64,000 nucleotides of DNA from Candidatus Omnitrophota bacterium (GTDB lineage Bacteria; Omnitrophota; Omnitrophia; Omnitrophales; JACROU01), in NCBI GenBank assembly GCA_029261035.1, contig JAJDCD010000008.1:310001-374000 (forward strand), in the 5' to 3' direction. This document shows positions 35,138-63,815 of this stretch, piece by piece (position 1 is the stretch's first letter; each line of letters starts with the position of its first letter). A program made the position numbers and the translations under genes. A model generated the notes under the pieces. That model saw only the letters and a list, made by a program, of their open reading frames with translations, was not told the DNA's origin and searched no databases.

Positions 35138-35214
35138 GGTGGGCGTAGCTCAGTTGGTAGAGCCCCTGATTGTGGTTCAGGTTGTCGCGGGTTCAAGTCC
35201 CGTCGCTCACCCCA
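35138..35214 (+). tRNA. tRNA-His (anticodon GTG)
   Basis: A full cloverleaf: acceptor GTGGGCG/CGCTCAC, D arm TAGCTCAGTTGGTAGAGC, anticodon stem CCTGA/TCAGG with loop TTGTGGT (anticodon GTG at 35172-35174), T arm GCGGGTTCAAGTCCCGT, and an encoded CCA. G at 35138 faces C73, the extra G-1 pair that marks tRNA-His. The last 22 bases are shared with the 3' end of the serine recombinase gene on the other strand, so this is the insertion site of the element to the right. Confidence 0.97.
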
Positions 35215-37019
35215 TTTGATACCCTCGGACGAACCGGATCTATTAATCCGGTCGTCGGGTTAAATTCCCGCGGCGGTCTGCCTCTTCCTTGAGGTTGGCC
35301 GCCATTTTGGCTAAACTTTAAGCGCTTCGCATTATTCCCATAGCACTTGCCAATTTCTTCTAAAGTTTCAGCCCAAATTTTTGTCAGACTGGTGTCAATC
35401 GCTGGTTTACAAAATAAACCTACAGTAATTTCTCCCGTCCAACTTTTCCTATCATAAACTTTACAAACCGCGTATCTAATGAAGCCTGATAGTAAACTTT
35501 TCAACTTTTCCGGTTTATCTTCGCATGAATCAACAATCATCTCGAAAAGTTGAAGCGTTTGAATTTGTTCGCGAGCATTTCCTGCAAGCCTCGTCTCAGC
35601 CTTTAATTCCTGATCGAGTCTCCGTTCTTCCTGGTTGAGCTCGTCAATCTCTGTTTGCAATGCCCGGAGTCTATCTTTCACGGTCTCCACCCCACAAACC
35701 CCCTTATCTGCTAGCACCTCAACTAAATTTTGAATCTTCTGTTCCGTTTGAGGCTTTAGGGCACGTACGCGAATCAAATCTTCATCGAGATCTTTGATTC
35801 GGGAGTAACTGGCTTTATTAGCTTTGTTTATCACCTTTTCAATAATAGTGGGTCTCAACTTTAATCTTTTAAGAAATTCTATAACTGCTTGATCAATCGA
35901 TTCAGCAGGCACATAAACACTTTCGCATTCTGCGCCGTCTGATTTGTCTGCCTTCGAGCACAAATAATAAGGGTAATAACGTTTAACTCTCGATCCACCT
36001 ATACCCGGTTTTGGCACCATTGATGATTGACAGCTTGGACATCTTAAAAGACCTTGCAGCAGATACACATATTTCTTTGTTGCATCAAGAGTTTTTCTGC
36101 TGTGATTTGTTTTCGAATTGCTCTTGATAATGTTTTGAATCTTTTCGTATACCTTCAGGTCCCGAATAGGCTTCCAGTTCCCGACGTAACGCTTTCCCTC
36201 ATAATCCTGGTGACCTGCATACCGAATATTTTGAAGGATTCTTAAAACTTGCGGTTTTGTATAGGATTTACCACGTGGGGTCTTGTATCCCAGCCTCCTG
36301 AGTTCGCGAGCTACTTTATTTGAGCTTTCATGTTGGATATAAAGTCTGTCTATTAAATTTATATGTTTCTTAAAATTATTATGAATTAGAAAAGTATGGT
36401 GACCATTCTTATCTCTTGTCATTTTATATCCAATGGGTGGTGAGCCAAGAGGACGTCCCTGCTGTACGTGTCTTACGTTAGTTTCTAAACTATACTGCGA
36501 AATGCGATCTGCTTGCCACTGCGCAAGATTGGCATGGTTACGCATAATCATTTGGCCATCAGGCGTTGATGTATCAATGTCTAAATCGAGACAAACTAAT
36601 GCAACTCCGGACTCATTAAATTGTCCTGAAATCTGAATGTAATCTAGCAAGTTTCTGGCAATGCGATCCAGCTTTGTGACCACAACCACATCAATCAAGC
36701 CGCTCTTTGCAAGCAGAAGCGCTTGCCTTAACCCCTCGCGTCCAAATATGGTCGTCGCCGTTTTTCCTCGCCGTTCCCCCTTCTCATTCTCGTTTTCAAC
36801 AAAGATCTCCGTCAGCATCCACTTCTGAGGAGTTAGCATGGTGGATTTCGCTTTTACCCAGTTAGCGAGAACATCCTTCTGATGATCTAAGGATTCGCCA
36901 ATCTTTTTCGCCTGCTTGTCTGATGACACCCTTGTAATGCCAAAGACACGAATAGTGTCCTTTTCTTTAAAGCTGTCAATCGTTGTAACATTTTGCCATC
37001 TTCTTCGTCTCTTTCTCAT
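35193..37019 (-). CDS. Large serine recombinase (element integrase)
   Basis: A 608-residue site-specific recombinase. Catalytic resolvase domain (about 25-170) with ITRVSSDKQ holding the nucleophile Ser, KLDRIARNLLD and SGVALVCLD; recombinase domain (about 190-310, RELRRLGYKTPRGK, ILQNIRYAG); zinc ribbon (LRCPSCQSSM, YYLCSKADKSDGAEC); long coiled coil (about 395-480). The ATG at 37019 has GGAG five bases upstream. Its stop lies within tRNA-His, and the last 25 or so codons (NPTTGLIDPV onward) look like a late extension read through the attachment region. Confidence 0.93.
   Translation of the reverse strand: MRKRRRRWQNVTTIDSFKEKDTIRVFGITRVSSDKQAKKIGESLDHQKDVLANWVKAKSTMLTPQKWMLTEIFVENENEKGERRGKTATTIFGREGLRQALLLAKSGLIDVVVVTKLDRIARNLLDYIQISGQFNESGVALVCLDLDIDTSTPDGQMIMRNHANLAQWQADRISQYSLETNVRHVQQGRPLGSPPIGYKMTRDKNGHHTFLIHNNFKKHINLIDRLYIQHESSNKVARELRRLGYKTPRGKSYTKPQVLRILQNIRYAGHQDYEGKRYVGNWKPIRDLKVYEKIQNIIKSNSKTNHSRKTLDATKKYVYLLQGLLRCPSCQSSMVPKPGIGGSRVKRYYPYYLCSKADKSDGAECESVYVPAESIDQAVIEFLKRLKLRPTIIEKVINKANKASYSRIKDLDEDLIRVRALKPQTEQKIQNLVEVLADKGVCGVETVKDRLRALQTEIDELNQEERRLDQELKAETRLAGNAREQIQTLQLFEMIVDSCEDKPEKLKSLLSGFIRYAVCKVYDRKSWTGEITVGLFCKPAIDTSLTKIWAETLEEIGKCYGNNAKRLKFSQNGGQPQGRGRPPREFNPTTGLIDPVRPRVSNGVSDGT
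35230..35285 (-). other. tRNA-half-like fold within the recombinase 3' end
   Basis: In plus orientation GACGAACCGGAT/ATCCGGTCGTC forms a stem and loop, followed by CGGGTTAAATTCCCG, which has the shape of a T arm (loop TTAAATT against the usual TTCRANY). It lies next to the true tRNA-His and may be a decayed tRNA 3' half or part of the recombinase binding site. Confidence 0.3.
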
Positions 37020-37069
37020 GCTCACTCCATTTATTCATTTAGGTATCATATTATATACATAAATGGTAT

Positions 37070-45237: not shown

Positions 45238-46200
45238 TTAAATTGCTTCAAGCAAAATCACTTGAATGGGAGTGTAGGACTCCACGGTAATGCTTTTCTC
45301 CACGCGTGCTTCTCTCAAATTCTGGCGTGCTTCATCATGAAGATTCTGTGAAACATTCAGCCTGAGCTGATCTTCCAAGCTATAGGGGTCACGCCCTCGT
45401 CCCCCAAGAAAAAGAGAACCTACTGAAAGCACAGACTCACCAATAGCTTTTAATACTTTCCTGTCCGTGTGCCGATCCACATCACCTTGTATTCCTGCGG
45501 CCCCGTCCTCAGAAAGAGCCAGAGCTCGCACACGAACCTCACGACCGTCCGGTAAGATTAAGAGATCAAAGCTGACATTAATCCGGTCTAAGGACTTCAC
45601 AACATCTGCTTCTCCAAGAAATCGTGCCCCCTTCGGAATCACCACTTCATCTCCGTAACTGAAATCCTTGGGAAGAATTGCCTGAACCGGTGCTCGGACG
45701 TTAAAAGAAAATATACGGTCTGAAAGAAGCGCAGGAACCTTTGTTCCTGACGGCAACCCGAAACTGAACTCCTCTTTTGTCTCTCTGAGACGCATATTTT
45801 TCTCTTCCTCTGGTTTTGAAACAAAAACTGCAATCTTTGTGTCATATTTTCTTTTTTTGCGTTCTGCTCGGATCTCATCGGATCTTCTCTTAACCTTTTT
45901 GGTAGACCGTGAAGATTTTTTAATCGCCTTTTCCATCGATTCTGCCGTCATTACAATCCTGCCTTCTTCAACCGGAGAAATTTTCATTTCTCCTTTTGTT
46001 TTTTTAGAACGCGGCGAAAAAACAGAGAACGAGAGAAACACAACGATTAATATGAAAACTACAAATAAAACAGGCCGCTTTTTAATTGCCTCTTTAAGGC
46101 TTTCTGCTTTTTCTCTTGGACCGTCTGGTGAATCAAAAAATTGTTTCTCTGGCGGTCCCTGTTTTTTCTTCTGAGCTTTCTTAAAAAAATCTTTAAACAT
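45238..46200 (-). CDS. virB10: T4SS core protein VirB10/TrbI
   Basis: A 320-residue protein that spans both membranes in the conjugation channel. One inner-membrane helix (PVLFVVFILIVVFLSFSVF, about 44-62), a charged linker, and the C-terminal VirB10 domain (GLPSGTKVPALLSDRIFSFN, PVQAILPKDF, VVIPKGARFLGEADV, FDLLILPDGREV). The stretch from IQGDVDRHTDRKVL to PIQVILLEAI is the family end. Follows virB9 with 27 bases between. Confidence 0.9.
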   Translation of the reverse strand: MFKDFFKKAQKKKQGPPEKQFFDSPDGPREKAESLKEAIKKRPVLFVVFILIVVFLSFSVFSPRSKKTKGEMKISPVEEGRIVMTAESMEKAIKKSSRSTKKVKRRSDEIRAERKKRKYDTKIAVFVSKPEEEKNMRLRETKEEFSFGLPSGTKVPALLSDRIFSFNVRAPVQAILPKDFSYGDEVVIPKGARFLGEADVVKSLDRINVSFDLLILPDGREVRVRALALSEDGAAGIQGDVDRHTDRKVLKAIGESVLSVGSLFLGGRGRDPYSLEDQLRLNVSQNLHDEARQNLREARVEKSITVESYTPIQVILLEAI

Positions 46201-48790: not shown

Positions 48791-49561
48791 TTAGAGAGCA
48801 CCTCCCCCATAAAGCGTACTAAGACCTTCCGCAAAGTCAGAGGAATCCTCTAAAAACTTAACCTTTTCTCGTTCTATGCGTTTTTCTTCTCGCGTGACCT
48901 GTTCTATTTGAGTCGCTTGAAGTTCCAACATTTTCGCGAGAACTTCTTGATTCTGCTGTTCAAGAACCATAAGACGAGAGACACCCTGAACTTGTAACCT
49001 AGCCGCACCTTTTGGGCTTGCGTTCTTTGATTGACTCTGAATTAAGTCCGCAGCATCCCGTGTTTTTTGTCCTGACTCACGGATCTGCCCTGCCAAATGA
49101 AAGGCATCTACAACTTGAGATTCTTCAAACATGATGTAGGAACGGGCCTCAGTGTCCGGTATTGCGCCTGTCACTGACTCAAGCGCATTCCGGATGTCCT
49201 GAGGAGTACCCCCGCTACCTAACACTTCAATATTGGGTGTGATAAAACCAGCATCAAAAAAGAAATCTTTAAGGCTTCCTCCTTGATCCATGAGGCCTCT
49301 AATAGAATCACCAATTGTGGAATCAAATATTTCGTCTAGACCCGAATGAAAGCGAAATGTTTCTAGGGTTTGGGCTTTGAGTTCGCTAAGACGATCTACA
49401 GCAAGCCCAATTTCTTTGACCCACTTCGCTTGCATAAGAGTGTTTCTAAGCACATTAATCGCGGTGTTAATGGGGTCATTAAACGTATAAGCTTTTGAAG
49501 CGGGCGTCATTAAAACCATACATAAAGGAATGAGGATAAGAGCTTTCTTCAATTGCTTCAT
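48791..49561 (-). CDS. T4SS pilus-tip protein VirB5/TrbJ-like
   Basis: A 256-residue secreted protein: signal peptide (MKQLKKALILIPLCMVLM, cut near SKA), then mostly helices with a coiled coil at the end (QATQIEQVTREEKRIEREK). The start YTFNDPINTAINVLRNTLMQ is typical of TrbJ/VirB5, and its place between VirB4 and VirB6 agrees. Overlaps virB4 by four bases. Confidence 0.83.
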   Translation of the reverse strand: MKQLKKALILIPLCMVLMTPASKAYTFNDPINTAINVLRNTLMQAKWVKEIGLAVDRLSELKAQTLETFRFHSGLDEIFDSTIGDSIRGLMDQGGSLKDFFFDAGFITPNIEVLGSGGTPQDIRNALESVTGAIPDTEARSYIMFEESQVVDAFHLAGQIRESGQKTRDAADLIQSQSKNASPKGAARLQVQGVSRLMVLEQQNQEVLAKMLELQATQIEQVTREEKRIEREKVKFLEDSSDFAEGLSTLYGGGAL

Positions 49562-52077
49562 GCAGCTACCTCACTTTTATTCACGCCGTTTGGATATTTT
49601 TTTGCCAATCTTTCAAGCGCAGCCAAATTAGAGTCGCTGGGATATTCACTTCGGAGCCTTTTCTCCTCAGCTAGGTCCGTTGGATCTGTTGTAGCAATCC
49701 AGTATTCAAGAGGACTAGGCTCAAGCTTTGCAAGTACTGATCTTTGATCAAAAAGAATAAATATTTCCGAATAGCGTCCGGGCTTAACTTCCAATTCCCG
49801 TACTGCACGAACCTGATTTTCATTAAATCCAAAATCACCGAGCTCTTCATGCCCTTTCTTAAGGCGCAGGATATACTTCACATGCGCGTTATTAGCCATA
49901 ACACCAGCAATTTCAGAACTGAGAAAGTCTTCTGGGTTTTGACTGATGGCAAGAACCGCTCCATTCATTTTTCGCATTGTTCTAAAGAACAGTTCTATAA
50001 GATCTACGCCTTGCGTTTTTTTGAGAAGATGCCAGCATTCATCAAGTACAAGAATCTTCTTGCGATTTACATTTTCAAACTTACGTCTTAAAGCAAACGG
50101 AATAATGAGCAGTAAGATTTCTTGAAGTTCTTCGTATTGACTGATCTTCCTAAGATCAAAGATGGCAAAACGTGAATCAAAATCAAATCGGGCGGGACGA
50201 TTTAGAATCTTTGAGTACTCACCTTCACAAAAAAGGGTGAGCTCTTTCGCGAACTTATAAGCAAGCTGTCTGTCTTCGTCATCACCGGCACCATAACTTT
50301 GGAGGTATTTTTGAATGTCACCAAGAATAGGCGCTTCTTTTGGGGAAAGATTTTTATAAACATACCGAATAACACGTTCAAGAATGACTTTCTCGCTAGC
50401 AGCCCAAGCCCGTTCGGGATTGATCATCTTCTGGAGGAGTTCCTTCAGAAACTGAAGAAAAGTCGCATCGGCCTCCCCTTCAGTTGGGAATAGGACTTCT
50501 TTCGAAGGAAAGGGATTTAAAGCAAACTCTTCACTACACTCTACCTCAAGATAAGACCCCCCTAAGATGCCAGCAAGTTTCTTATAGGAACCTCCGAGAT
50601 CAAGCACGATCACATCATGCTCAGACGCTTCACTTAAAAAGTGCATGAGAAGATGGTTCGTAAAAAAGGATTTTCCTGATCCCGTACTACCGAGCATGAG
50701 AGCATGTTTTGAAGCGAGCGAAGAATCAAAGAGATCCAATTTTAACGGTTCATTACGATAAGTTTTTAGAAGCAGCCCTATTTCCTGAGTCCCCGGCCAA
50801 CTAGCTTGTACTGGAAGAAGATTTACCGCAGTTTCAGAACTCACAAGAAATGCGATTGGATTCTCTCCGCCTTGGAGTGGAAGAAGCGAAAGAAATAGCC
50901 GGTCATGATTCATATGATCAAGAATGGCTTGAGCACCATCCCCTAAATGTCGGAACCCACGCAAAACCTCACTCGCTTGACGAGCTGCGCTTTCTTTCTT
51001 TTTACTACGCGTCATTACAATCATCGAAGCATAGAAAAGCTTATCTGAACTCTCCGCTATTTCCGTCAAAAGAGCATCTGTATCATCTTCCTTTGCAAGC
51101 GCATCATGGTTCTTTGTCCTGGAATAATAACTTTCTGCTCGCGCAAGATTTCCGGTGCGCTTAAGTCCTGATTTTTCTTTATCCTGATCCGGAACTTCTA
51201 GTGTTAAAGAAAGGTAATAATCATCCCCAAGCCCACTCTCAAAACTTTTCATACTTTTCAGACTCGTTGTCTCAGGCATCTGAGAAAGATTGATCACGTT
51301 ATGGAAATACTCACTTAGATAAAATGCGTCATAACCAGCGAAGGGATTACTTAAAAGAAGTTTCGAGCGAACGCTTGAGGGATCAAGCTGATCATTACGA
51401 CTCGAAAACGCATATTTCTCAAATTCTGAATTTTTTGAATCCAAACTCGGATTCAAAAGCTCATGGCAATACCGCAGGACATCTTCATCATTAAGTTCTT
51501 TAATCCCTAACCCTAAGTCTTTTAAGGACTCTTTAATCTCCGTTGAAATTGAATGAAGCCTGTCTCTGAGTCTTTCAAATTCTTGCTTCTCTAGGCGGAC
51601 TGCTTTTTTATTGAAAGCAATCGCCATATCTGGAACAAGAGAGTTTCTTGGTTTTTTACTCGATGGATGAATAACTACAAATAAATAGACTTCTCTTTTA
51701 AGAAAAGGTTGTTTCATATGAGTCTCGATCCTTGCTTCTGAAAATCGCTTACTTAACACGTGATCGCTCTGGATGGACTCACGGTATTGCTCAAGCAAGA
51801 CTTCATCGCCCTTTTTCTGACGAACAACAAAATGAAGAGTAGTTTTTTCAGGAAGCGAATTAAGGAATCGCCGCATACGATGTTCAAAGTCAGAGATTTC
51901 AGATTCTTTCTCAAGCAAAAGATCCCTACCTTCCACAAGGAACCCTTTCCCCAAAGATCCTGATACTCCAACGATGGTTGAATCATCAACATCGTAGAGA
52001 TCGATCTCTTTTAAAAAGGAAGGTTTATTTTCCCGTTGAATCAAATCTCTTGTTTTAGTAATGAAATTTTTTTTCAT
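49558..52077 (-). CDS. virB4: T4SS ATPase VirB4/TraC
   Basis: An 839-residue cytosolic ATPase that powers pilus and channel assembly. N-terminal CagE/TrbE-type domain (about 1-420), then a RecA-like motor with Walker A GSTGSGKSFF (about 460), Walker B KKILVLDECWHLL (about 676) and the family motifs VLDLGGSYKKL and GAVLAISQNPEDFLSS. Starts four bases inside the virB3 gene. It is the surest marker of the conjugation system here. Confidence 0.96.
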   Translation of the reverse strand: MKKNFITKTRDLIQRENKPSFLKEIDLYDVDDSTIVGVSGSLGKGFLVEGRDLLLEKESEISDFEHRMRRFLNSLPEKTTLHFVVRQKKGDEVLLEQYRESIQSDHVLSKRFSEARIETHMKQPFLKREVYLFVVIHPSSKKPRNSLVPDMAIAFNKKAVRLEKQEFERLRDRLHSISTEIKESLKDLGLGIKELNDEDVLRYCHELLNPSLDSKNSEFEKYAFSSRNDQLDPSSVRSKLLLSNPFAGYDAFYLSEYFHNVINLSQMPETTSLKSMKSFESGLGDDYYLSLTLEVPDQDKEKSGLKRTGNLARAESYYSRTKNHDALAKEDDTDALLTEIAESSDKLFYASMIVMTRSKKKESAARQASEVLRGFRHLGDGAQAILDHMNHDRLFLSLLPLQGGENPIAFLVSSETAVNLLPVQASWPGTQEIGLLLKTYRNEPLKLDLFDSSLASKHALMLGSTGSGKSFFTNHLLMHFLSEASEHDVIVLDLGGSYKKLAGILGGSYLEVECSEEFALNPFPSKEVLFPTEGEADATFLQFLKELLQKMINPERAWAASEKVILERVIRYVYKNLSPKEAPILGDIQKYLQSYGAGDDEDRQLAYKFAKELTLFCEGEYSKILNRPARFDFDSRFAIFDLRKISQYEELQEILLLIIPFALRRKFENVNRKKILVLDECWHLLKKTQGVDLIELFFRTMRKMNGAVLAISQNPEDFLSSEIAGVMANNAHVKYILRLKKGHEELGDFGFNENQVRAVRELEVKPGRYSEIFILFDQRSVLAKLEPSPLEYWIATTDPTDLAEEKRLRSEYPSDSNLAALERLAKKYPNGVNKSEVAA

Positions 52078-52847: not shown

Positions 52848-53480
52848 CTATACAAATTTCTTAACCCCTTCCCTAATAATTTGATGAACTCGAACTATCG
52901 AAACTCCAAGCTGCTCGGAAATTTGTTTGAGCGTTCGACCTTGCTTCCTCAGCTTAAGCACTTCTCTTTGTCTTTCTGTTAAAGGCCGTGATCCCTTTTT
53001 CTTTTTCCGGTATGAACGCTGTGAAGATTTCCGGTGGGTTTTGATCAGTTTCGCTTGTATTCGATCTCGCAAATGACAAAAATGAGATTGAGATATACCT
53101 AACCTCTTTTGAACAGTCTCATCCGAATACTTCATCTCATAGAAAAATGTGTAGCATGCTTGCTCCTGAGGACTCAGATTTGCTCTGAGAGCCAGAAGCC
53201 CCAGCTTTGTTCTTTGTGCATGTTCTTTCTCTTCAAGAACCTCCTCTTCTTCAATTCTCACAAGCTCATCGTAGGGACTCGGGGAACTTGCCAGCTTTCG
53301 TTTCACCTCAAGCTCAAAGATTGAAAGAGGGACTCCTGAATTTGAATTGTTCTCGATACGTTGAAAGTCAACACTCTTCACCGTACGTCCTGATTCAAAC
53401 CATATAAGAGATTCTCTCTCATCCCTCTGGCTCTCCTTGATAAGTCTCTCAAGCGTTGCTCTTCTTTTTTGTTCTTTCAT
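52848..53480 (-). CDS. Double helix-turn-helix regulator (sigma-70 region 4-like)
   Basis: A 210-residue protein: charged N-terminal part with a coiled coil (DELVRIEEEEVLEEKEHAQ), one region-4-like HTH (about 115-160: LSPQEQACYTFFYE, VQKRLGISQSHFCHLRDRI), a very basic linker (RKSSQRSYRKKKKGSR), and a second HTH (about 175-210: LTERQREVLKLRKQGRTLKQ, ISEQLGVSIVRVHQII). AGGAG precedes the ATG at 53480. No sigma region 2 is present. It sits just upstream of the virB promoter and probably controls transfer genes. Confidence 0.85.
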   Translation of the reverse strand: MKEQKRRATLERLIKESQRDERESLIWFESGRTVKSVDFQRIENNSNSGVPLSIFELEVKRKLASSPSPYDELVRIEEEEVLEEKEHAQRTKLGLLALRANLSPQEQACYTFFYEMKYSDETVQKRLGISQSHFCHLRDRIQAKLIKTHRKSSQRSYRKKKKGSRPLTERQREVLKLRKQGRTLKQISEQLGVSIVRVHQIIREGVKKFV

Positions 53481-53527
53481 TTTGGTTCTCCTATTCCGCC
53501 GAACAGGGAGAACCCAACGCACACAAA

Positions 53528-55582: not shown

Positions 55583-55960
55583 TTAGTCCTCACCTTCAAG
55601 CATAATTGTAATCACTGGTTCAGCATCATCCCCAGGTCCGCACTTCGCCCACATCTGAACTGGTTTTGGCTTTTTACTATCCGGCATCAGAAAAAGCGGA
55701 GCAAAGCGAATCACATTACCATTCGTCCTTCGTGCGTATTTTCTGAAAATCATGAGCATATCCCATGATCTGCCTTTTAAATCCTGACCTGGTGCATCAG
55801 TATTATTTAGAATGGCAAAGACACCCTGCGTTACAGCAAGTGGGAACCGAAAGCCCGCCTCTTTTGCCGTATCTGATAAATCAATTAATACTCCATCCTC
55901 AAGGGCTTCTTGCCTTGTATATCTAAAGACAATATCTGCATCATCAAATAAGTTACTCAT
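55583..55960 (-). CDS. DUF6573-like mobile-element protein
   Basis: A 125-residue protein: VFRYTRQEALEDGVLIDLSD, TAKEAGFRFPLAVTQGVFAI, GRSWDMLMIFRKYARR, PVQMWAKCGPGDDAEPVITIML. This pattern is that of DUF6573, common on plasmids and integrative elements, of unknown role. AAGGAG precedes the ATG. Confidence 0.8.
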   Translation of the reverse strand: MSNLFDDADIVFRYTRQEALEDGVLIDLSDTAKEAGFRFPLAVTQGVFAILNNTDAPGQDLKGRSWDMLMIFRKYARRTNGNVIRFAPLFLMPDSKKPKPVQMWAKCGPGDDAEPVITIMLEGED

Positions 55961-56800: not shown

Positions 56801-57457
56801 TTACATCATGCCTTCCGGTGGTAAATCCCTATCTATATCAAGCAGATAACCACATCGGCATTCTTCTGGATAACATAGTCCGCAGAAATCCTCTTCTTCA
56901 GAAAAGATTGTTTCCTCTCGCAGTTTCTTTCTTTTTTTGACTTCAGAAAACAATTCTTCTTTTTCTTCTGTGATTTTTGAAAAGTCTATGTCTGAGGGGC
57001 ACCCTAAAAGGTTCAGCCTCAATTTGACATAACCGAATGCCCCACAAGGAAGCTTTGTTTTCTTTGTGGCTTCATAGGTTCCTTTATTCGAGAGTACGAT
57101 ACTATATTCATACACATTTCTCGCGTGAGCATCGTCTTCAGGCGAATGAAAAGCGTCCATATTATGATGGGAATGCACAATTCCGTTTCCGCCAAGTTCC
57201 TCTTCGAATTCACAATTAACTGAAGTGACTTGCTGTACCGGAATCTTAAACTCGTCTATCGTCCCGTCTTTTACCCAAAAAACTCCACCCCATTCCTTAT
57301 CTCTCATTTGTTGAGAAAGAAAGAGCCACCGACTCCATATCTCCCAAGGAATATCTAGAGTTCCGCGGTTATCTTCATCAACGCACCAACCGCATTCACC
57401 ATAGTTTTTCACTTCTATGTCCAGTAGATTGCTGTTCTTGTTATTTTGTAATTTCAT
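56801..57457 (-). CDS. JAMM/MPN metalloprotease (deubiquitinase-like)
   Basis: A 218-residue zinc protease of the JAB1/MPN fold. The full JAMM signature is present: Glu in KEWGGVFW, then HSHHNMDAFHSPED, that is H-x-H-x7-S-x2-D, for zinc and catalysis. A C-terminal Cys cluster (FCGLCYPEECRCG) may bind a second metal. The ATG at 57457 has GGAGG upstream and lies 17 bases inside the E1 gene, so the two are coupled; the open frame to 57556 is not used. It should trim the modifier precursor or remove it from targets, as known for JAB proteins in such operons. Confidence 0.9.
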   Translation of the reverse strand: MKLQNNKNSNLLDIEVKNYGECGWCVDEDNRGTLDIPWEIWSRWLFLSQQMRDKEWGGVFWVKDGTIDEFKIPVQQVTSVNCEFEEELGGNGIVHSHHNMDAFHSPEDDAHARNVYEYSIVLSNKGTYEATKKTKLPCGAFGYVKLRLNLLGCPSDIDFSKITEEKEELFSEVKKRKKLREETIFSEEEDFCGLCYPEECRCGYLLDIDRDLPPEGMM

Positions 57458-58391
57458 TTTCTTCTTCCTCCATAGTTTGATTTTCTTTCCAGGCCTCAAG
57501 CGCAGACTCAAGACTAGAACCTTTGATATCACCAGATTTAATTTGCTCAATGGCATTATTAAATCCTTCCTCTTTACCTTCCTCTACACCTTCTGCTTTC
57601 GATTCGTCCCTTGCTTCGTCCATATCACCTTCCGAATACTGCATTGAACAATCGCCACAATATCCATAGTCGTCTGGAATATGTTCATGGATGTTGTCTA
57701 GGATGTTTTCCTCTCCGCTTTCAACACCCTCTGCCTGCCCTTTCTCTCTTGCATCATCCAAGATTTTGGGGCAAACATGAGAGCACCCCTGAGTATGCAG
57801 CTTCCCAATATCATCCATAATACAGACTTCTTTGTAGAGCTGTGAGGACACACCCGCTGCGGCCGCTAAGACCGCAGGAATTACCCAGGATGGCGTTACC
57901 GAATACCCACCCTCCTCTGTTACTTTGTTAAACGATAGAGGGAAAGCTTTTGAAACGTTGAGGATTGTTCCGTCATATCCTATCCTTTGATAAGGGATCT
58001 CATTCTTTTTGCAATAAGCACAAATGATCTGCTGGCTTTTCAAATTATCTGTGCAGCAAAAAACAACTCCCCGGAGAAGACTGCAATCACTCGGTTCTTC
58101 TATACGCGCTTCCTGCACCTCAATTCTTATAGGGTTCCTTATAGATCTGATGAAGTTGCTTACAACTTCTGTTTTCTTCATTCCAACATCACCCTGCGTT
58201 AAAGGAAGTCTATTAAGGTTGGAAGTCTCAAGCGTATCCGAGTCCACAAGCACAAGCTCTTTGACCCCCGACATAGCAAGAAAGATTGCGGTCCAAAACC
58301 CCGTCCCGCCACACCCAACAATCGAAACTACTTCAGGAATTTTAATGTCTGTGATTCTATTCTGCCGTTCATAAATCGCTTCTTGTATCAT
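57441..58391 (-). CDS. E1-like ThiF/MoeB-family activating enzyme
   Basis: A 316-residue adenylating enzyme. Nucleotide-binding loop VGCGGTGFWTA (Gly26-Gly31), acidic strand LVLVDSDTLETSNLNR (Asp50, Asp52, Asn58, Arg61), FCCTDN and the ending SWVIPAVLAAAAG of the fold. Past residue 200 comes an unusual tail with CSHVCPK and YCGDCSMQY and two acidic copies of a short block (ILDDAREKGQAEGVE and MDEARDESKAEGVEE). It should adenylate the C-terminus of the small protein at 59099. It starts 26 bases after the E2-like gene. Confidence 0.88.
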   Translation of the reverse strand: MIQEAIYERQNRITDIKIPEVVSIVGCGGTGFWTAIFLAMSGVKELVLVDSDTLETSNLNRLPLTQGDVGMKKTEVVSNFIRSIRNPIRIEVQEARIEEPSDCSLLRGVVFCCTDNLKSQQIICAYCKKNEIPYQRIGYDGTILNVSKAFPLSFNKVTEEGGYSVTPSWVIPAVLAAAAGVSSQLYKEVCIMDDIGKLHTQGCSHVCPKILDDAREKGQAEGVESGEENILDNIHEHIPDDYGYCGDCSMQYSEGDMDEARDESKAEGVEEGKEEGFNNAIEQIKSGDIKGSSLESALEAWKENQTMEEEENEITK

Positions 58392-58416
58392 TTTAGGTTT
58401 TCTCCTTTTGTTTATT

Positions 58417-59019
58417 TTAAAGAAGCTTCTCTATCATCTCTTTTTCGAGAAGCTGGTTAACTTTTATTTCTGACGGGCTATCTTTATTTTCGAAGATTTC
58501 CTTAAGCTTTTTATTATCATCGGGTAAAAAAACTCCACCCAAAGACTCCATATTAATGATCTTGAATGCTTCTACTATTCGTGCCGTCTCTTGCTGCAAC
58601 CCTTCAAAAGACTTTGGCTCACTACACTTAAGATCACCTGTGCATATAGGACGGATATGCTCCCCATCCATCCCAAGATAATGGAATCCTATGAGAGGCT
58701 CTGCCGTAAAATATCTGAACTTTGCAGAATTATCATAAACTCCATAAACCTTAAAAGGATCATGCGTTATCGGTTGCTTCAAGATGTAAGTTTTTCCGCG
58801 TGAATAGAGCCGGTCTATCCGAAGCTCTCCAACGTATCCTTCTATCAAAACATGCTCACCCTTTAGCGAAAGACAAACATCTCCACGAAAAGGTAGATTA
58901 AGTACATTTTTCCTAAGATCTTCAGCATATTTATCAATATATTCACGCCAAGAAGCATCCACAGCCATAACCGCTTCAGAACATTTCTCTGCCTCGCTTA
59001 TCAGTTGGGTGTCAATCAT
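58417..59019 (-). CDS. E2-like conjugating-enzyme-fold protein
   Basis: A 200-residue protein. The first half has long strands and helices; the core GFHYLGMDGEHIRPICTGDLKC matches the E2 flap and active-site block in spacing (HP..., glycine, Cys): in the 201-residue frame starting at GTG 59022, His122, Pro125, Cys127 and Cys133, with Cys133 at the place of the catalytic Cys. This resembles bacterial E2-like proteins of ubiquitin-like operons such as PRTRC protein B. The assignment is weaker than for its neighbours and rests partly on context. GTG at 59022 and ATG at 59019 both have a good ribosome site. Confidence 0.62.
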   Translation of the reverse strand: MIDTQLISEAEKCSEAVMAVDASWREYIDKYAEDLRKNVLNLPFRGDVCLSLKGEHVLIEGYVGELRIDRLYSRGKTYILKQPITHDPFKVYGVYDNSAKFRYFTAEPLIGFHYLGMDGEHIRPICTGDLKCSEPKSFEGLQQETARIVEAFKIINMESLGGVFLPDDNKKLKEIFENKDSPSEIKVNQLLEKEMIEKLL

Positions 59020-59044
59020 CACCTCTTCACCTCCTAGAGTAAAA

Positions 59045-59078
59045 GGGAGGAAGGCAAAAACAACGATGCCTTCCTCCC
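59045..59078 (-). terminator. Hairpin between the ubiquitin-like and E2-like genes
   Basis: Perfect 12-bp stem GGGAGGAAGGCA/TGCCTTCCTCCC, loop of ten, then TTTTACTC on the minus strand. Only partial read-through would be expected into the E2-E1-JAMM genes. Confidence 0.85.
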
Positions 59079-59098
59079 AAGTTAGTTACTTGCTTCCT

Positions 59099-59335
59099 TT
59101 AACAGCCAGGTTTAACGTAACGTTTCACTTCAACCTTGTGCTGACCGAAGGTTTCCGGTAAGCCCGCCGTATCTTGAAGCTCCGCGCCATTCACTAAGAT
59201 AGTGAATGAATCAATACCTTTCTCTTCAAGGATTCTTTTCAAAGATTCCTTCACAGGATCGGTCGCGTTTACTTCTACATTTTCACCAGCAATATTAATT
59301 GTTACTTTGTCGTTTTTAAATTCATTTAGATTCAT
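59099..59335 (-). CDS. Small ubiquitin-like modifier candidate ending in Gly-Cys
   Basis: A 78-residue protein with the order of a beta-grasp fold: strand VTINIAGENVEVN, helix DPVKESLKRILEEKGI, strands SFTILVNGAEL and HKVEVKRYVKPGC. It ends -Lys-Pro-Gly-Cys. Strand LVNGAELQD resembles the LVNGKEL core of this group. AAAGGAG precedes the ATG at 59335, chosen over an upstream GTG (59413). It heads the E2-E1-JAMM genes, and a hairpin follows it. A C-terminal Gly exposed by removal of Cys would make it a substrate of the E1. Confidence 0.75.
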   Translation of the reverse strand: MNLNEFKNDKVTINIAGENVEVNATDPVKESLKRILEEKGIDSFTILVNGAELQDTAGLPETFGQHKVEVKRYVKPGC

Positions 59336-59690: not shown

Positions 59691-60668
59691 TTAGATTTTT
59701 GAAACTAAGACCGCTTCATCAAATGCTCTGGACTTAACATTTGCTCCATTTTCAAACCAAATGTTTTTAAGTCGATTCGTTGGATCTTTTTTGACATTCC
59801 TAATGGTGCTTATATGATCCACATACTCAGTCACAGCATTGTAAGCAGCCCATAAAGTCCCTCGAATACCAGGTCTATCATTACCGGCACCTTTCTCAAA
59901 AAGCTCGACCAGATTAACTTTCTTTTTCTTAAGCCTCGTCGATTCCTCTTCTTGAATAGTTGAATCGACTCCTAAAACTCTGTCAAAATAGGACTCAACT
60001 TGTGATGCACCCAGTGGCTTCCTGACAAAACCTTGGACCAACTCATCAAAACCTGAATAGAAATCTAGCGCTAATCCTAAAACGCGCCTCGCCTCTCCGA
60101 CTCTCATGCGGATATTGCCTGAGTGACGAATCGAAACACTACTTTCCGTGTTCTTTAACGAACAATTCAGAGTGTTTTGGCAAACAACACGGATAGGCGT
60201 GAAATACACTTTTAAAGGAGATCTCCCGTTGTGTGTATTGGTAAGACATAAGTATTTTTCCACCACATCATCTCTAAAAACAATAGTGTTTTGTGGTAGC
60301 TTGGCGAGAAGCCAAATCTGTTCTCCTTTCCCAAGAGCCCCTGCGGTGTGATAAATTGCCTGCCCTTCGCCAACAAGTGCATCAAAGAAATCGAATGCTT
60401 CTTTATTCTGGATCACCGAGTACTTACGCCCGACGATTCCTAAAGGCTCTTTTGTGTCCTGTCTAACCGTTGCAAAAAACTTAGGGACTATCCGCTTATT
60501 TTCTGCTTCATCTACGGTGTAAACAGAACGTTTTTCGATTTCATAATCGAGTCCTGCTGCAACAATCGCTTCTTGGGCTGTCGCGGGATGATCCAATTCT
60601 GTTCCAATCCCATGCCAAGGTTTCTCTCCGTAATAAAACATTTTGTTTTCATTAATATTGTGCGCCAT
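59691..60668 (-). CDS. DUF932 mobile-element protein
   Basis: A 325-residue protein of the DUF932 (phage/plasmid-like, TIGR03299) family: KPWHGIGTELDHPATAQEAI, LGIVGRKYSVIQNKEAFDFF, GEQIWLLAKL, LCLTNTHNGRSPLKVYFTPI, RVVCQNTL and GLALDFYSGFDEL are all typical. Function unknown; common on plasmids and phages and in the neighbourhood of ubiquitin-like PRTRC cassettes as I recall. GGAGG precedes the ATG. Confidence 0.93.
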   Translation of the reverse strand: MAHNINENKMFYYGEKPWHGIGTELDHPATAQEAIVAAGLDYEIEKRSVYTVDEAENKRIVPKFFATVRQDTKEPLGIVGRKYSVIQNKEAFDFFDALVGEGQAIYHTAGALGKGEQIWLLAKLPQNTIVFRDDVVEKYLCLTNTHNGRSPLKVYFTPIRVVCQNTLNCSLKNTESSVSIRHSGNIRMRVGEARRVLGLALDFYSGFDELVQGFVRKPLGASQVESYFDRVLGVDSTIQEEESTRLKKKKVNLVELFEKGAGNDRPGIRGTLWAAYNAVTEYVDHISTIRNVKKDPTNRLKNIWFENGANVKSRAFDEAVLVSKI

Positions 60669-60752: not shown

Positions 60753-61037
60753 TCAAGCCTGTGAAACGTTTGAGCAATTCAACTTGTCATTATCCTCTTT
60801 TACTTCGATTCTTTTTACGGCCTTGCAAAGACGTTCAGCCGCCTTTCGTAATTCCTGCGCTTGGTCTACGGAGAAGGATACACCCTTCTTGGTAGGCAAA
60901 AGCGTATGTTCATTATGACTTTGAAACCAAAGCCTCAAATCTATAAAATACTTACCTTTGTATTTCCTGATTGATGCTTGAATCTCCTCTCCTTTACCTC
61001 TTGGAAAACTATAGATAAGACAACTATCTTCCGTCAT
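60753..61037 (-). CDS. Protein of unknown function
   Basis: A 94-residue protein (MTEDSCLIYSFPRGKGEEIQ, YKGKYFIDLRLWFQS, LPTKKGVSFSVDQAQELRKA). The strand FIDLRLWF and helix pattern recall PC4/YdbC-type single-strand DNA-binding proteins (YFIDLRxWY, KGISL), so a PC4-like role is likely but not certain. AAGGAG precedes the ATG at 61037; the frame is open to 61112 but that part overlaps the terminator of the gene before. Confidence 0.7.
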   Translation of the reverse strand: MTEDSCLIYSFPRGKGEEIQASIRKYKGKYFIDLRLWFQSHNEHTLLPTKKGVSFSVDQAQELRKAAERLCKAVKRIEVKEDNDKLNCSNVSQA

Positions 61038-61080
61038 TTTTTCTCCTTCTCGGTTATTTGATTGACCACAATAAATAAAA

Positions 61081-61107
61081 GGGAGGGGCAAATGCATCAC
61101 CCCTCCC
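61081..61107 (-). terminator. Terminator after the 177-residue gene
   Basis: Stem GGGAGGGG/CCCCTCCC with loop of eleven and tail TTTTATTTATT on the minus strand. Confidence 0.82.
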
Positions 61108-61127
61108 TTCAATTCGAGACAGCACCG

Positions 61128-61661
61128 TTAAGCAGCTACTGTTTCCGCTGCCATTTCAGGTAGCGGACTTAGAAGTGCTTCCACAATAGCGGGAACAGCA
61201 GAATCCAAGATTGAGATTCCACATTTCCCTTTACCTGTACGAAGCTCATCGGTTTCCTCTGCGGTGAAGAAGAATTGGACACGTACAGCTTGATTGTCCT
61301 TTCCTCTTGTTTTTTTGATTCCGTAAAAGTTCTTACCTGGAATCTCAACCATTTGAGAAGAACCTTGCGTAAACGGCTCCTTTCCTTCCTCAGGTTTTGG
61401 AAGTTCTGGAGCTGCTTTTGCCGCCATCATAAAAGCTGCAACTTGAGGGCAAGCGTCTTCTCGCAACTTAATCATGTCATCAGAAGCGACGAAACTCTTA
61501 CCATCCTTGCTTTCAAAATAGCGTTGGACGATTCGATACTGAACTCCTTCCTTATCATCCTTCCAGAGTCGCACTCGATAAACATTCTTCTCTGAACGAG
61601 GAACCTCTGCAATTACCTTATTTTGACTTTCGTTACTTTTGTTTTCTTTGTTTGTATTCAT
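61128..61661 (-). CDS. Protein of unknown function
   Basis: A 177-residue protein with a polar N-terminus (MNTNKENKSNESQNKVIAEV), a strand region (NVYRVRLWKDDKEGVQYRIV), and an Ala/Pro-rich end. No family recognised. It shares its leader sequence with the ubiquitin-like gene, so both may be under the same control. GGAG precedes the ATG. Confidence 0.7.
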   Translation of the reverse strand: MNTNKENKSNESQNKVIAEVPRSEKNVYRVRLWKDDKEGVQYRIVQRYFESKDGKSFVASDDMIKLREDACPQVAAFMMAAKAAPELPKPEEGKEPFTQGSSQMVEIPGKNFYGIKKTRGKDNQAVRVQFFFTAEETDELRTGKGKCGISILDSAVPAIVEALLSPLPEMAAETVAA

Positions 61662-61979: not shown

Positions 61980-63815
61980 TTACTTTGATTTCTTTCTCAA
62001 ATTCTGAACCTCCTCTAATGTAGTCATTGCTTCATCATCATTGTCAAGAATTGGTGTTTTTCTAAATTGTTTTCGTGGGTTTTTTGGAACCGCTCTCTTT
62101 TGTTTTCTTTCAGACGAATCTTTTTTATTAAAAGGTTGGGTGTAACTTACATGACCAAAGAAATCTAGCTTTACATGGTCTGTATGAAACTCAGGCGTCT
62201 TCCAAATCACGGCTGCTTCACCACGTTTAAGTCCGCGAATAAGGTCCGGTTCAATTCTAAATGTTTGTCCTTCTCGCACTGATCCCTGCCCTGTAAATCC
62301 TTTCCCAAGCATATCCTCTTTTGTTTGATATGTATTGATCATTGTCTTGCGTGTTCCTGCTATTTTCACAAAACGTTCAATAGAGAACGGATCGTCCTGT
62401 CTTAAAATAATTTTTGTATTTGTATTTTCAAGACACTGCTGCTGAAATCCAGGGGCATTACGAAACTGAAGATCCCCAAGTGACTGTAAATACATTGCAA
62501 TCGCAAATCGACTTGCCCGTCCCTTGCTCAAAAGTGTGACGAAATTGCTATCAAGAAAGTCAGTTGCATCGTCAATGTGAATTCCAAAGAAGTGACGTTT
62601 ACGTGCTGGCAATTCAGCTTGAATATAACTTGATACAGACCTGATACTTTGAATGATCATTCGCCCCAAACGCCTACTTGAGTCAGTGTATTTTTGAAGA
62701 TCAAGGCTGAAGTAAGCAATCGAGTTCCGCTCGTACAGAGTTTGTATATCAATATCGGGCACATCAACATCCATAAGATCTGAAAACTCACTTCGTGACA
62801 TAAGATGAAGGTCTGCAATAAGCCCGCTCAAAAACCTGCGCGACTCCTTAAAATGATCCGCCATTTTCTCAAGATCATTTTTTATAACATAGTCTTTCGT
62901 TTCAGATTGAAGTCGTTGCAGTGCATTAAGATCAGTTAAATAACCATGAATTTCTCGGAACTTTGGAGCTCTGCCCGTCGACACAATCGCATTAAAAATC
63001 GTAAGAGCTGCTTGTTCACACATCTTTTTGTAAAACTCTTCGGTCCAAATCTGTGAGTTAATCAGCATCGAAGTAAGTTCAGTTGCATTTGCGCCTTCCG
63101 CTCTAAAAAACGGATTAAAGGTATTGGACTCTTTTACGTGATTTAGTGAGAAGTAGTAAAAATCATCCACGCGGCCCGTTTCTTCGACAATCCAGCGAAG
63201 CTTATCATAGAGTTCAAGATCACCTTTACCGTCAATGATAATCATGCCCTTCCCATGAGCAATGTCGTGAGCTACGGCTGGAAGCATGACTGACTCGCTT
63301 TTCCCACTTCCCGTGCTACCGACCACAAGCGTATGCATTTCCCTTTGATCATTCGTAAGATGAAGTGGCTTTCCAGTTTTTAAACTTTGTCCCAAATATG
63401 ACTTGAAGTAATTTGACTCAAGTCGTGGATACCTCATTTTGTTTAAGCTGGGCTCTCTTTTCTGCCGCTCTTTTTTAAGATTCTCTGAGTCAGGATTAAG
63501 ATGCACAACTGCAAAAAAGAAGGGTAAGCTAACAGCTAAATAAACTCCGTAATACACACTCAATTTAATCCAAATAGCTGTTTGGCCTTCAATTCTCATT
63601 GCCTCATCTAGCCAATCAAAAATCTGATGCATGCTCAAAAAAAACGCAGCCGCAACAAACACTGAAACCGCAATTAATAAATACTTAAGTGCGGGGCTCC
63701 CAGATCGATCTGCTAGATTTATTAACGCTCGCGAGAAGCTAAGTGGTATCCTCACGAATGTTCCACCCAATACTTTTAGAAAGAACGATTCCCGTGATTG
63801 TGAAGGCTTATTCAT
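61980..63815 (-). CDS. T4SS coupling protein VirD4/TraD/TraG type
   Basis: A 611-residue ATPase that hands DNA to the transfer channel. Two N-terminal membrane helices (about 42-62 and 83-105), then the RecA-like motor: Walker A VVGSTGSGKSESVMLP (about 165-175), GMIIIDGKGDLEL, and the Walker B-like GIHIDDATDFLDS (about 410). Middle all-alpha domain lies between (residues 255-330). The C-terminal tail is basic. Starts with ATG inside the stop of the preceding gene (ATGA). Confidence 0.93.
   Translation of the reverse strand: MNKPSQSRESFFLKVLGGTFVRIPLSFSRALINLADRSGSPALKYLLIAVSVFVAAAFFLSMHQIFDWLDEAMRIEGQTAIWIKLSVYYGVYLAVSLPFFFAVVHLNPDSENLKKERQKREPSLNKMRYPRLESNYFKSYLGQSLKTGKPLHLTNDQREMHTLVVGSTGSGKSESVMLPAVAHDIAHGKGMIIIDGKGDLELYDKLRWIVEETGRVDDFYYFSLNHVKESNTFNPFFRAEGANATELTSMLINSQIWTEEFYKKMCEQAALTIFNAIVSTGRAPKFREIHGYLTDLNALQRLQSETKDYVIKNDLEKMADHFKESRRFLSGLIADLHLMSRSEFSDLMDVDVPDIDIQTLYERNSIAYFSLDLQKYTDSSRRLGRMIIQSIRSVSSYIQAELPARKRHFFGIHIDDATDFLDSNFVTLLSKGRASRFAIAMYLQSLGDLQFRNAPGFQQQCLENTNTKIILRQDDPFSIERFVKIAGTRKTMINTYQTKEDMLGKGFTGQGSVREGQTFRIEPDLIRGLKRGEAAVIWKTPEFHTDHVKLDFFGHVSYTQPFNKKDSSERKQKRAVPKNPRKQFRKTPILDNDDEAMTTLEEVQNLRKKSK

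Follow-up and report, generated by a model that had tools for sequence, protein, structure and literature searches.

In the 64,000-nucleotide stretch analysed here (the window; positions 310001-374000 of the 466 kb contig JAJDCD010000008.1 from a Candidatus Omnitrophota genome of 2.7 Mb), a reading of the open reading frames (ORFs) identifies a cassette of four minus-strand genes coding, in this order, for a ubiquitin-like modifier (Ubl), an E2-like protein, a ThiF-type E1-like adenylating enzyme and a JAMM metalloprotease (Table 1). A preliminary description had listed these four ORFs in the same order on one strand with the E1 and JAMM genes overlapping; this arrangement is confirmed, with the two reading frames sharing 17 bases (57441-57457). 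The JAMM start was placed at the ATG at 57457, yielding 218 residues, instead of at the ORF start at 57556, because the homologues share that start point, while the E2-like gene most likely begins at the ATG at 59019 (MIDTQ...), its homologues likewise opening with MID. A purine-rich, ribosome-binding-like stretch is present 5' of each of the four genes. Comparison of the closest pair of related loci (L009/L010) gave ratios of non-synonymous to synonymous substitution rates (dN/dS) of 0.070 for the Ubl, 0.089 for the E2 and 0.081 for the E1, and that of the JAMM is 0.065 in the pair L017/L018, drawn from the same two genomes. Values of 0.065-0.089 indicate that the cassette genes encode maintained proteins under purifying selection as opposed to being chance frames, as does the retention of the same four genes at nine loci.

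An E2-profile scan of 384 Omnitrophota genomes returned strong matches in six of them, the window genome included; weak matches from the same phylum scan (L011-L014) were set aside as chance. All five other genomes, whose loci were read with their flanks, carry the genes in the order Ubl, E2, E1, JAMM (among them Candidatus Omnitrophota contig JAQUNK010000009.1, locus L004, from the same genome as L006), with identities to the window proteins of 62-66% for the Ubl, 40-44% for the E2, 56-62% for the E1 and 52-56% for the JAMM. Further, a six-sequence E1 profile run against IMG/VR recovered three more cassettes, on contigs of 18.9 kb (L029), 41.7 kb (L030) and 139.6 kb (L031). Deeper profiles returned the same three contigs from IMG/VR, and scans of that database with queries of a single E2 sequence, of two E1 sequences and of two or six JAMM sequences gave no match. 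Judged by their gene content these contigs are phage: L029 encodes a Sak4-like annealing protein and a terminase large subunit, L030 a terminase small subunit, and L031 phage-family NAMPT, NAD synthetase and RNA ligase; a terminase large subunit was not found on the L030 or L031 contigs. The gene order on L029 and L030 is again Ubl, E2, E1, JAMM, and on L031 the E2, E1 and JAMM genes are flanked on both sides by Ubl genes, with a 72-aa Ubl and a 167-aa di-Ubl upstream and, downstream, the JAMM followed by a metallo-beta-lactamase-like gene and then a 173-aa di-Ubl. The GenBank plasmid and phage collections contained no close relative, the E1 matches there being partial and below 60% identity, and an E2 search of the GenBank plasmids gave no match.

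The phage loci display some additional features. The Ubl genes of L031 (2186-3038 and 11491-12012) number three with five Ubl domains between them, and the two tandem di-Ubls resemble polyubiquitin precursors. The metallo-beta-lactamase-like gene (L031:10304-11182) lies directly 3' of the phage JAMM; type 6a operons also combine such a gene with E1, E2 and JAB (PMC1779556). Phage L030 carries a second E2-like gene (L030:4073-4693) which is strongly diverged, at 19% identity to the window E2, and keeps the Cys-x-Gly (ATCFGN).

Pfam recognises the ThiF fold in the window E1 (9e-26), and the motifs GCGGTG and DSDTLETSNLNR, reported earlier as intact, were verified. In a maximum-likelihood tree of E1 adenylation domains (207 columns, Q.pfam+R4) the nine cassette E1s form one clade (97.3/93), which is sister to the E1s of multi-ubiquitin operons (99.9/100) and not nested within them. 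The ThiF and MoeB-like enzymes, together with two other, separate ThiF-family enzymes of the genome (L021, L022), constitute a separate clade (99.6/99), and PRTRC ThiF forms one of its own (100/100). The tree hence places the cassette E1s outside the clade of cofactor-synthesis MoeB/ThiF, a grouping that would have counted against the preliminary description. Inspection of the alignment shows that the MoeB-like, ThiF and PRTRC E1s possess a cysteine (in PSC, PTC and similar motifs) at a site where eight of the cassette E1s have PSW and the ninth PSQ; in the window E1, with its Trp, TPSC is replaced by TPSW. This is the site of the active cysteine of MoeB/ThiF. The multi-ubiquitin E1s likewise have no cysteine at this MoeB-type aligned site. 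Three other cysteines (C112, C113 and C127) are invariant among the cassette E1s, and their tails bear one to four CxxC motifs (CGDC at 245-248 in the window protein) which are possibly metal-binding. The loss of the usual E1 cysteine, the phage copies and the processed-looking tail of the Ubl discussed below had all been missed in the preliminary description.

Neither the Ubl nor the E2-like protein has a family match in Pfam/NCBIfam searches. The AlphaFold2 model of the Ubl, built from two sequences, has a predicted local distance difference test (pLDDT) score of 79.5 and the strand, strand, helix, strand, strand, strand succession of the ubiquitin topology. The 50 matches listed in a comparison of this model with solved structures are all beta-grasp domains (Z 5.1-6.8), including SUMO, UFM1, MoaD, TtuB, ubiquitin and Ras-binding domains; these matches are middling in Z and uniform in fold. 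A Foldseek comparison with viral models gave generic ubiquitin-fold matches only, none at E 0.001. The earlier suggestion that the protein at 59099 is beta-grasp-like is thereby borne out by the predicted structure and its matches. At the C-terminus, 10 of 11 aligned Ubl domains contain the motif VK[A/P]G; the 72-aa Ubl of L031 lacks it and ends HTGKA. What follows the motif differs: nothing in L004, L009 and L010, C in L007, L008 and the window (which ends VKPGC, i.e., a single Gly and one Cys), N in L029, NVLR in L030, and in the di-Ubls of L031 either RQ or ICLG at the ends or a linker into the second domain. A kept glycine with an extension varying in both length and letters is what would be expected if a precursor were cleaved behind this glycine, and it suggests the neighbouring JAMM as a candidate protease for trimming the Ubl to a single glycine.

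The JAMM protein retains Glu55, His95, His97, Ser105 and Asp108 in all nine homologues, so that the perfect HxH-x7-S-x2-D noted earlier (here HSH-x7-S-x2-D) is verified with every catalytic residue kept. Its match to Pfam Prok-JAB is weak (27 bits against a cut-off of 25), and its C-terminus carries a cluster of cysteines (C192, C195, C200 and C202). Profile comparison connects it with PRTRC protein A (E 7e-4), a score reached by 0 of 150 shuffles; a PDB sequence search with the JAMM profile found nothing meaningful. Among ten E2-like sequences, five residues are invariant, namely Pro43, Gly64, His113, Cys126 and Gly128 (numbered from the ATG at 59019), of which Cys126, in ICTGD, is the candidate catalytic cysteine; the His-to-Cys spacing is 12-14 residues in most members and about 20 in L031. 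The accepted E2-like family PRTRC protein B contains an invariant N...C-x-G at the corresponding relative position, and profile comparison aligns the Cys-x-Gly motifs of the two families with a weak score that was reached by 2/150 column shuffles, as compared with 101/150 for an unrelated control. The Pfam model Prok-E2_D had no match in 285 Omnitrophota genomes, nor in the controls, and is hence uninformative. From these sequence features, the second gene is probably E2-like, although this is not established.

The cassette of the window resides in a region with transfer genes between 45 and 64 kb, which also includes a CagX-like protein just under the cut-off, and the end of the ORF for a large serine recombinase abuts a tRNA-His that is likely the integration site (Table 1). 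The earlier view that the cassette sits on a conjugative element is upheld, the TraC and TrbI genes, the TraG/TraD-like coupling protein and this recombinase pointing to an integrative element of conjugative type. No attachment-site repeat of at least 14 bases was found in the 60 kb past the window.

Table 1. Features of the cassette and of the element carrying it (window coordinates)
Feature	Coordinates	Strand	Basis
Ubiquitin-like modifier (Ubl), 78 aa	59099..59335	-	beta-grasp AlphaFold2 model; tail ...RYVKPGC
E2-like protein, 200 aa	58417..59019	-	invariant residues, weak PRTRC protein B profile match
E1-like adenylating enzyme, 316 aa	57441..58391	-	intact nucleotide motif, Pfam ThiF, tree
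JAMM/JAB metalloprotease, 218 aa	56801..57457	-	Glu55...HSH-x7-S-x2-D
DUF932 / TIGR03299 protein	59691..60668	-	upstream of cassette
Large serine recombinase, candidate integrase	35193..37025	-	Pfam Resolvase, Recombinase, Zn_ribbon_recom
tRNA-His (gtg)	35139..35214	+	ARAGORN; overlaps end of recombinase ORF
TrbI-like conjugation protein	45238..46200	-	Pfam TrbI 1.2e-16
TraC-type transfer ATPase	49558..52077	-	Pfam TraC_F_IV and P-loop_TraG
TraG/TraD-like coupling protein	61980..63815	-	Pfam T4SS-DNA_transf and TraG-D_C

Four of the six bacterial copies are linked to F-type conjugation genes. At L016, TraC, a T2SS ATPase, TraU, TraF and TraH are found upstream of the cassette, and the same arrangement is seen by sequence likeness at L015, where TraU was confirmed, and at L019/L004. 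The region L016:17-15070 presents an unusual apparatus, in which a T2SSE ATPase and pseudopilin-like ORFs (type II secretion/type IV pilus-like) are found among the F-type TraC, TraU, TraF and TraH. Within the 20 kb read around the cassette, L017 and L018 have no transfer genes, the neighbours there being small accessory genes such as DUF6876 along with defence genes. The latter include Gabija (GajA, GajB) at L018:12973-16864, several kb from the cassette, and type I restriction in L017; AbiEi/AbiEii occur in L004.

The genes neighbouring the cassette in the window encode DUF932, PC4 and DUF6573 proteins and unknowns. The preliminary description had tied the cassette to DUF932, but that link looks local, as does the standing of this gene as an accessory of the element, since no DUF932-like ORF was noticed by eye, without a model search, beside the other copies. 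The small accessory genes around the cassette code for DUF6573 (55583-55960), a PC4-domain protein (60753-61112) and an unknown 177-aa protein (61128-61661), and a protein with a sigma-70 region 4 domain (52848-53522), perhaps a regulator of the transfer gene block, borders that block. Past the window the contig has metal-efflux-like genes, by sequence likeness, and a complete QatABCD with strong PADLOC matches (L047:3041-8021; about 417-422 kb of the contig), some 43 kb past where the window ends.

A 2006 study predicted operons of Ubl, E2, E1 and JAB genes on bacterial mobile elements (PMC1779556); later work reported conjugation by Bil (PMC11354881) and by CBASS (PMC10449767). Among these operons, the multi-ubiquitin type 6e comprises a tandem Ubl, an E2-fold protein and a JAB-E1 fusion, with E2-like domains described as inactive (PMC1779556). 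It resembles the cassette in the sister relationship of the E1s, in their shared lack of the MoeB-type cysteine and in the tandem Ubls of one phage cassette (L031). However, the cassette JAMM is encoded by a separate, downstream, overlapping gene, unlike the 6e JAB, which forms the N-terminal part of a fusion with the E1; Cys126 is invariant in the E2 candidate, as opposed to the inactive domains of 6e; and the Ubl of the window has one domain only. The PRTRC system (type 6d as we read that classification; TIGR03735, TIGR03736) likewise has a small, separate Ubl alongside E2-like, JAB and E1 genes and is found on mobile elements, its Ubl too has a conserved glycine near or at the end, and the JAMM profiles are related. 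Nevertheless, its gene order is Ubl-F-E2-JAB-E1 and not Ubl-E2-E1-JAMM, its E1 carries PSC where the cassette has TPSW and falls in a separate clade, and the Ubl profiles do not align. The PRTRC models also miss their cut-offs (15.9 against 101.8 bits for TIGR03735, PRTRC-A; 20.6 against 144.75 bits for TIGR03736, ThiF), Pfam Prok-E2_D and Prok_Ub have no match on the window cassette proteins, and the PRTRC partners ParB, E and F were not recognised near the cassette, the other copies having been checked by eye only. As a separate observation, the Metabacillus plasmid pB218 encodes an unannotated PRTRC-like set (L059:2351-5267; E2-like, Ubl ending GAKG, JAB, ThiF); at 330 kb, and with an RNA ligase gene, it is perhaps a phage-plasmid.

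The BilABCD system shares with the cassette its four genes for Ubl, E2, JAMM and E1 and the presence of some Ubls that extend past the glycine and are presumed to be trimmed by the JAMM. Its E1 has an inactive and an active adenylation domain along with a Cys domain, its E2 a CEHH motif, and BilA is a tandem Ubl (PMC11354881). In contrast, the window E1 consists of a single adenylation domain within 316 aa with a Trp at the cysteine site, His113 of the cassette E2 precedes Cys126 with no invariant His after it, and the window Ubl is single. The E1 adenylation fold of Bub (BubCD, PDB 9ea4 and others) and of CBASS Cap2 is recognisably related. Their E1 chains are longer (458 aa in BubCD, while Cap2 carries an E2 module), whereas the cassette E1 stands alone; the Bub comparison is a partial one. 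An analogy may also be drawn with the UFM1-UBA5-UFC1 pathway, with its single glycine and compact E1, UFM1 and UBA5 being among the matches. Pro-UFM1 ends VGSC, and trimming exposes a single terminal glycine; UBA5 uses a cysteine, and the protease that trims UFM1 is a cysteine protease and not a JAMM. The logic is alike and no kinship is claimed. The preliminary description's casting of the cassette as a minimal PRTRC/Bil version is not supported, as its E1 is sister to the multi-ubiquitin E1s, the PRTRC models score far below cut-off and the Bil hallmarks are absent. The cassette does not show the defining features of the PRTRC, Bil or multi-ubiquitin types. We class it as a new type of operon for Ubl conjugation in bacteria; the family is likely, though not certainly, novel. 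No description of this family was found in the open papers, a set to which most primary Bil, Bub and CBASS papers do not belong.

We consider it probable that the cassette is a self-contained system of Ubl conjugation and deconjugation carried by integrative conjugative elements and phages. In such a system the JAMM would trim the Ubl precursor down to the conserved glycine by cleaving off C, N, NVLR, RQ and the like, or would split the tandem Ubls; the E1 would adenylate the exposed glycine using ATP and, on account of the missing usual cysteine, would pass the activated Ubl to Cys126 of the E2-like protein either directly or via another cysteine; the E2 would couple it to target proteins through their amino groups, and the JAMM could later remove it. 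Of these steps, trimming, E2 activity, direct transfer and conjugation are inferred. Certain observations weigh against this scheme. In three of the six bacterial Ubls the last residue is already Gly, which would make trimming unnecessary there; a sulfur-carrier role of the Ubl is compatible with its sequence; and the AlphaFold2 model of the E2-like protein, from a two-sequence alignment, has a pLDDT of 42, with Pfam and PDB-sequence searches giving no meaningful match. The earlier assignment of the protein at 58417 as E2-like hence stands as regards gene position, the invariant His...Cys-x-Gly and the weak PRTRC protein B match, and not as regards the fold.

The second gene could accordingly be something other than an E2, with the system consisting of Ubl, E1 and JAMM and an unrelated partner, as would fit its want of a family match and a usable model. 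This appears distinctly unlikely in view of the invariant His and Cys-x-Gly, the fixed place before the E1, the alignment on the PRTRC-B catalytic motif and the retention of the Cys in the second E2-like copy of phage L030. The main biochemical rival is sulfur transfer, in which the E1 would activate a ThiS/MoaD-like Ubl, trimmed by the JAMM, so that a tRNA or a metabolite could be thiolated, in line with the JAB-containing sulfur operons described by Iyer et al. 2006 (PMC1779556). The presence of sulfur carriers such as MoaD and TtuB among the listed Ubl matches, generic ThiF models as the top E1 scores among NCBIfam models and the three Ubl tails ending in plain Gly would all suit it. Nonetheless, it is disfavoured and seems improbable: the E1 has neither a rhodanese domain nor a cysteine at the ThiF/MoeB/PRTRC site and clusters with the multi-ubiquitin E1s, no sulfur-metabolism genes were recognised next to the cassette copies, and every copy has the E2-like gene with its invariant His and Cys.

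A host anti-phage defence akin to Bil or CBASS Cap2/Cap3, carried as cargo, is the least improbable of the alternatives, though still unlikely. The known defence genes near copies (Gabija in L018, type I restriction in L017, AbiE in L004 and QatABCD on the window contig) are in keeping with it, but the cassette is present on three phage contigs, one with a terminase large subunit, PADLOC gives only distant E1-E2 matches, and there is no linked effector gene. Quite improbable, in turn, is a compact branch of PRTRC that helps to maintain or transfer the mobile element: the JAMM match to PRTRC protein A, the weak E2 match to protein B, the common mobile setting and the conserved terminal or near-terminal glycine of both Ubls are offset by an E1 that is not sister to PRTRC ThiF and lacks its cysteine, by the models falling far under cut-off, by Ubl profiles that do not align, and by the other gene order without recognisable ParB, E or F. 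Returning to the conjugation system, its carriage by both phages and conjugative elements leads us to favour a role in the service of the mobile element rather than in defence of the host, and the most likely role, as a guess held with less than even confidence, is the modification of host or rival-element proteins to the element's benefit. It is likewise possible, as a tentative proposal, that these loci represent a new family of complete phage and conjugative-element Ubl systems. Their E1, lacking the usual cysteine, would hand the Ubl from the acyl-adenylate straight to the E2 cysteine, the Ubl would end in a single glycine and phages would tag host proteins.

Ubl conjugation in bacteria is known mainly from host defence operons. 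If the above interpretation is correct, phages and transferable elements possess a complete set, and the tagging and untagging of proteins would be something that mobile elements do themselves. Further, an E1 devoid of the usual cysteine would illustrate how ubiquitin could be transferred with no E1 thioester, plausibly a stage midway from the activation of sulfur carriers to true ubiquitination.

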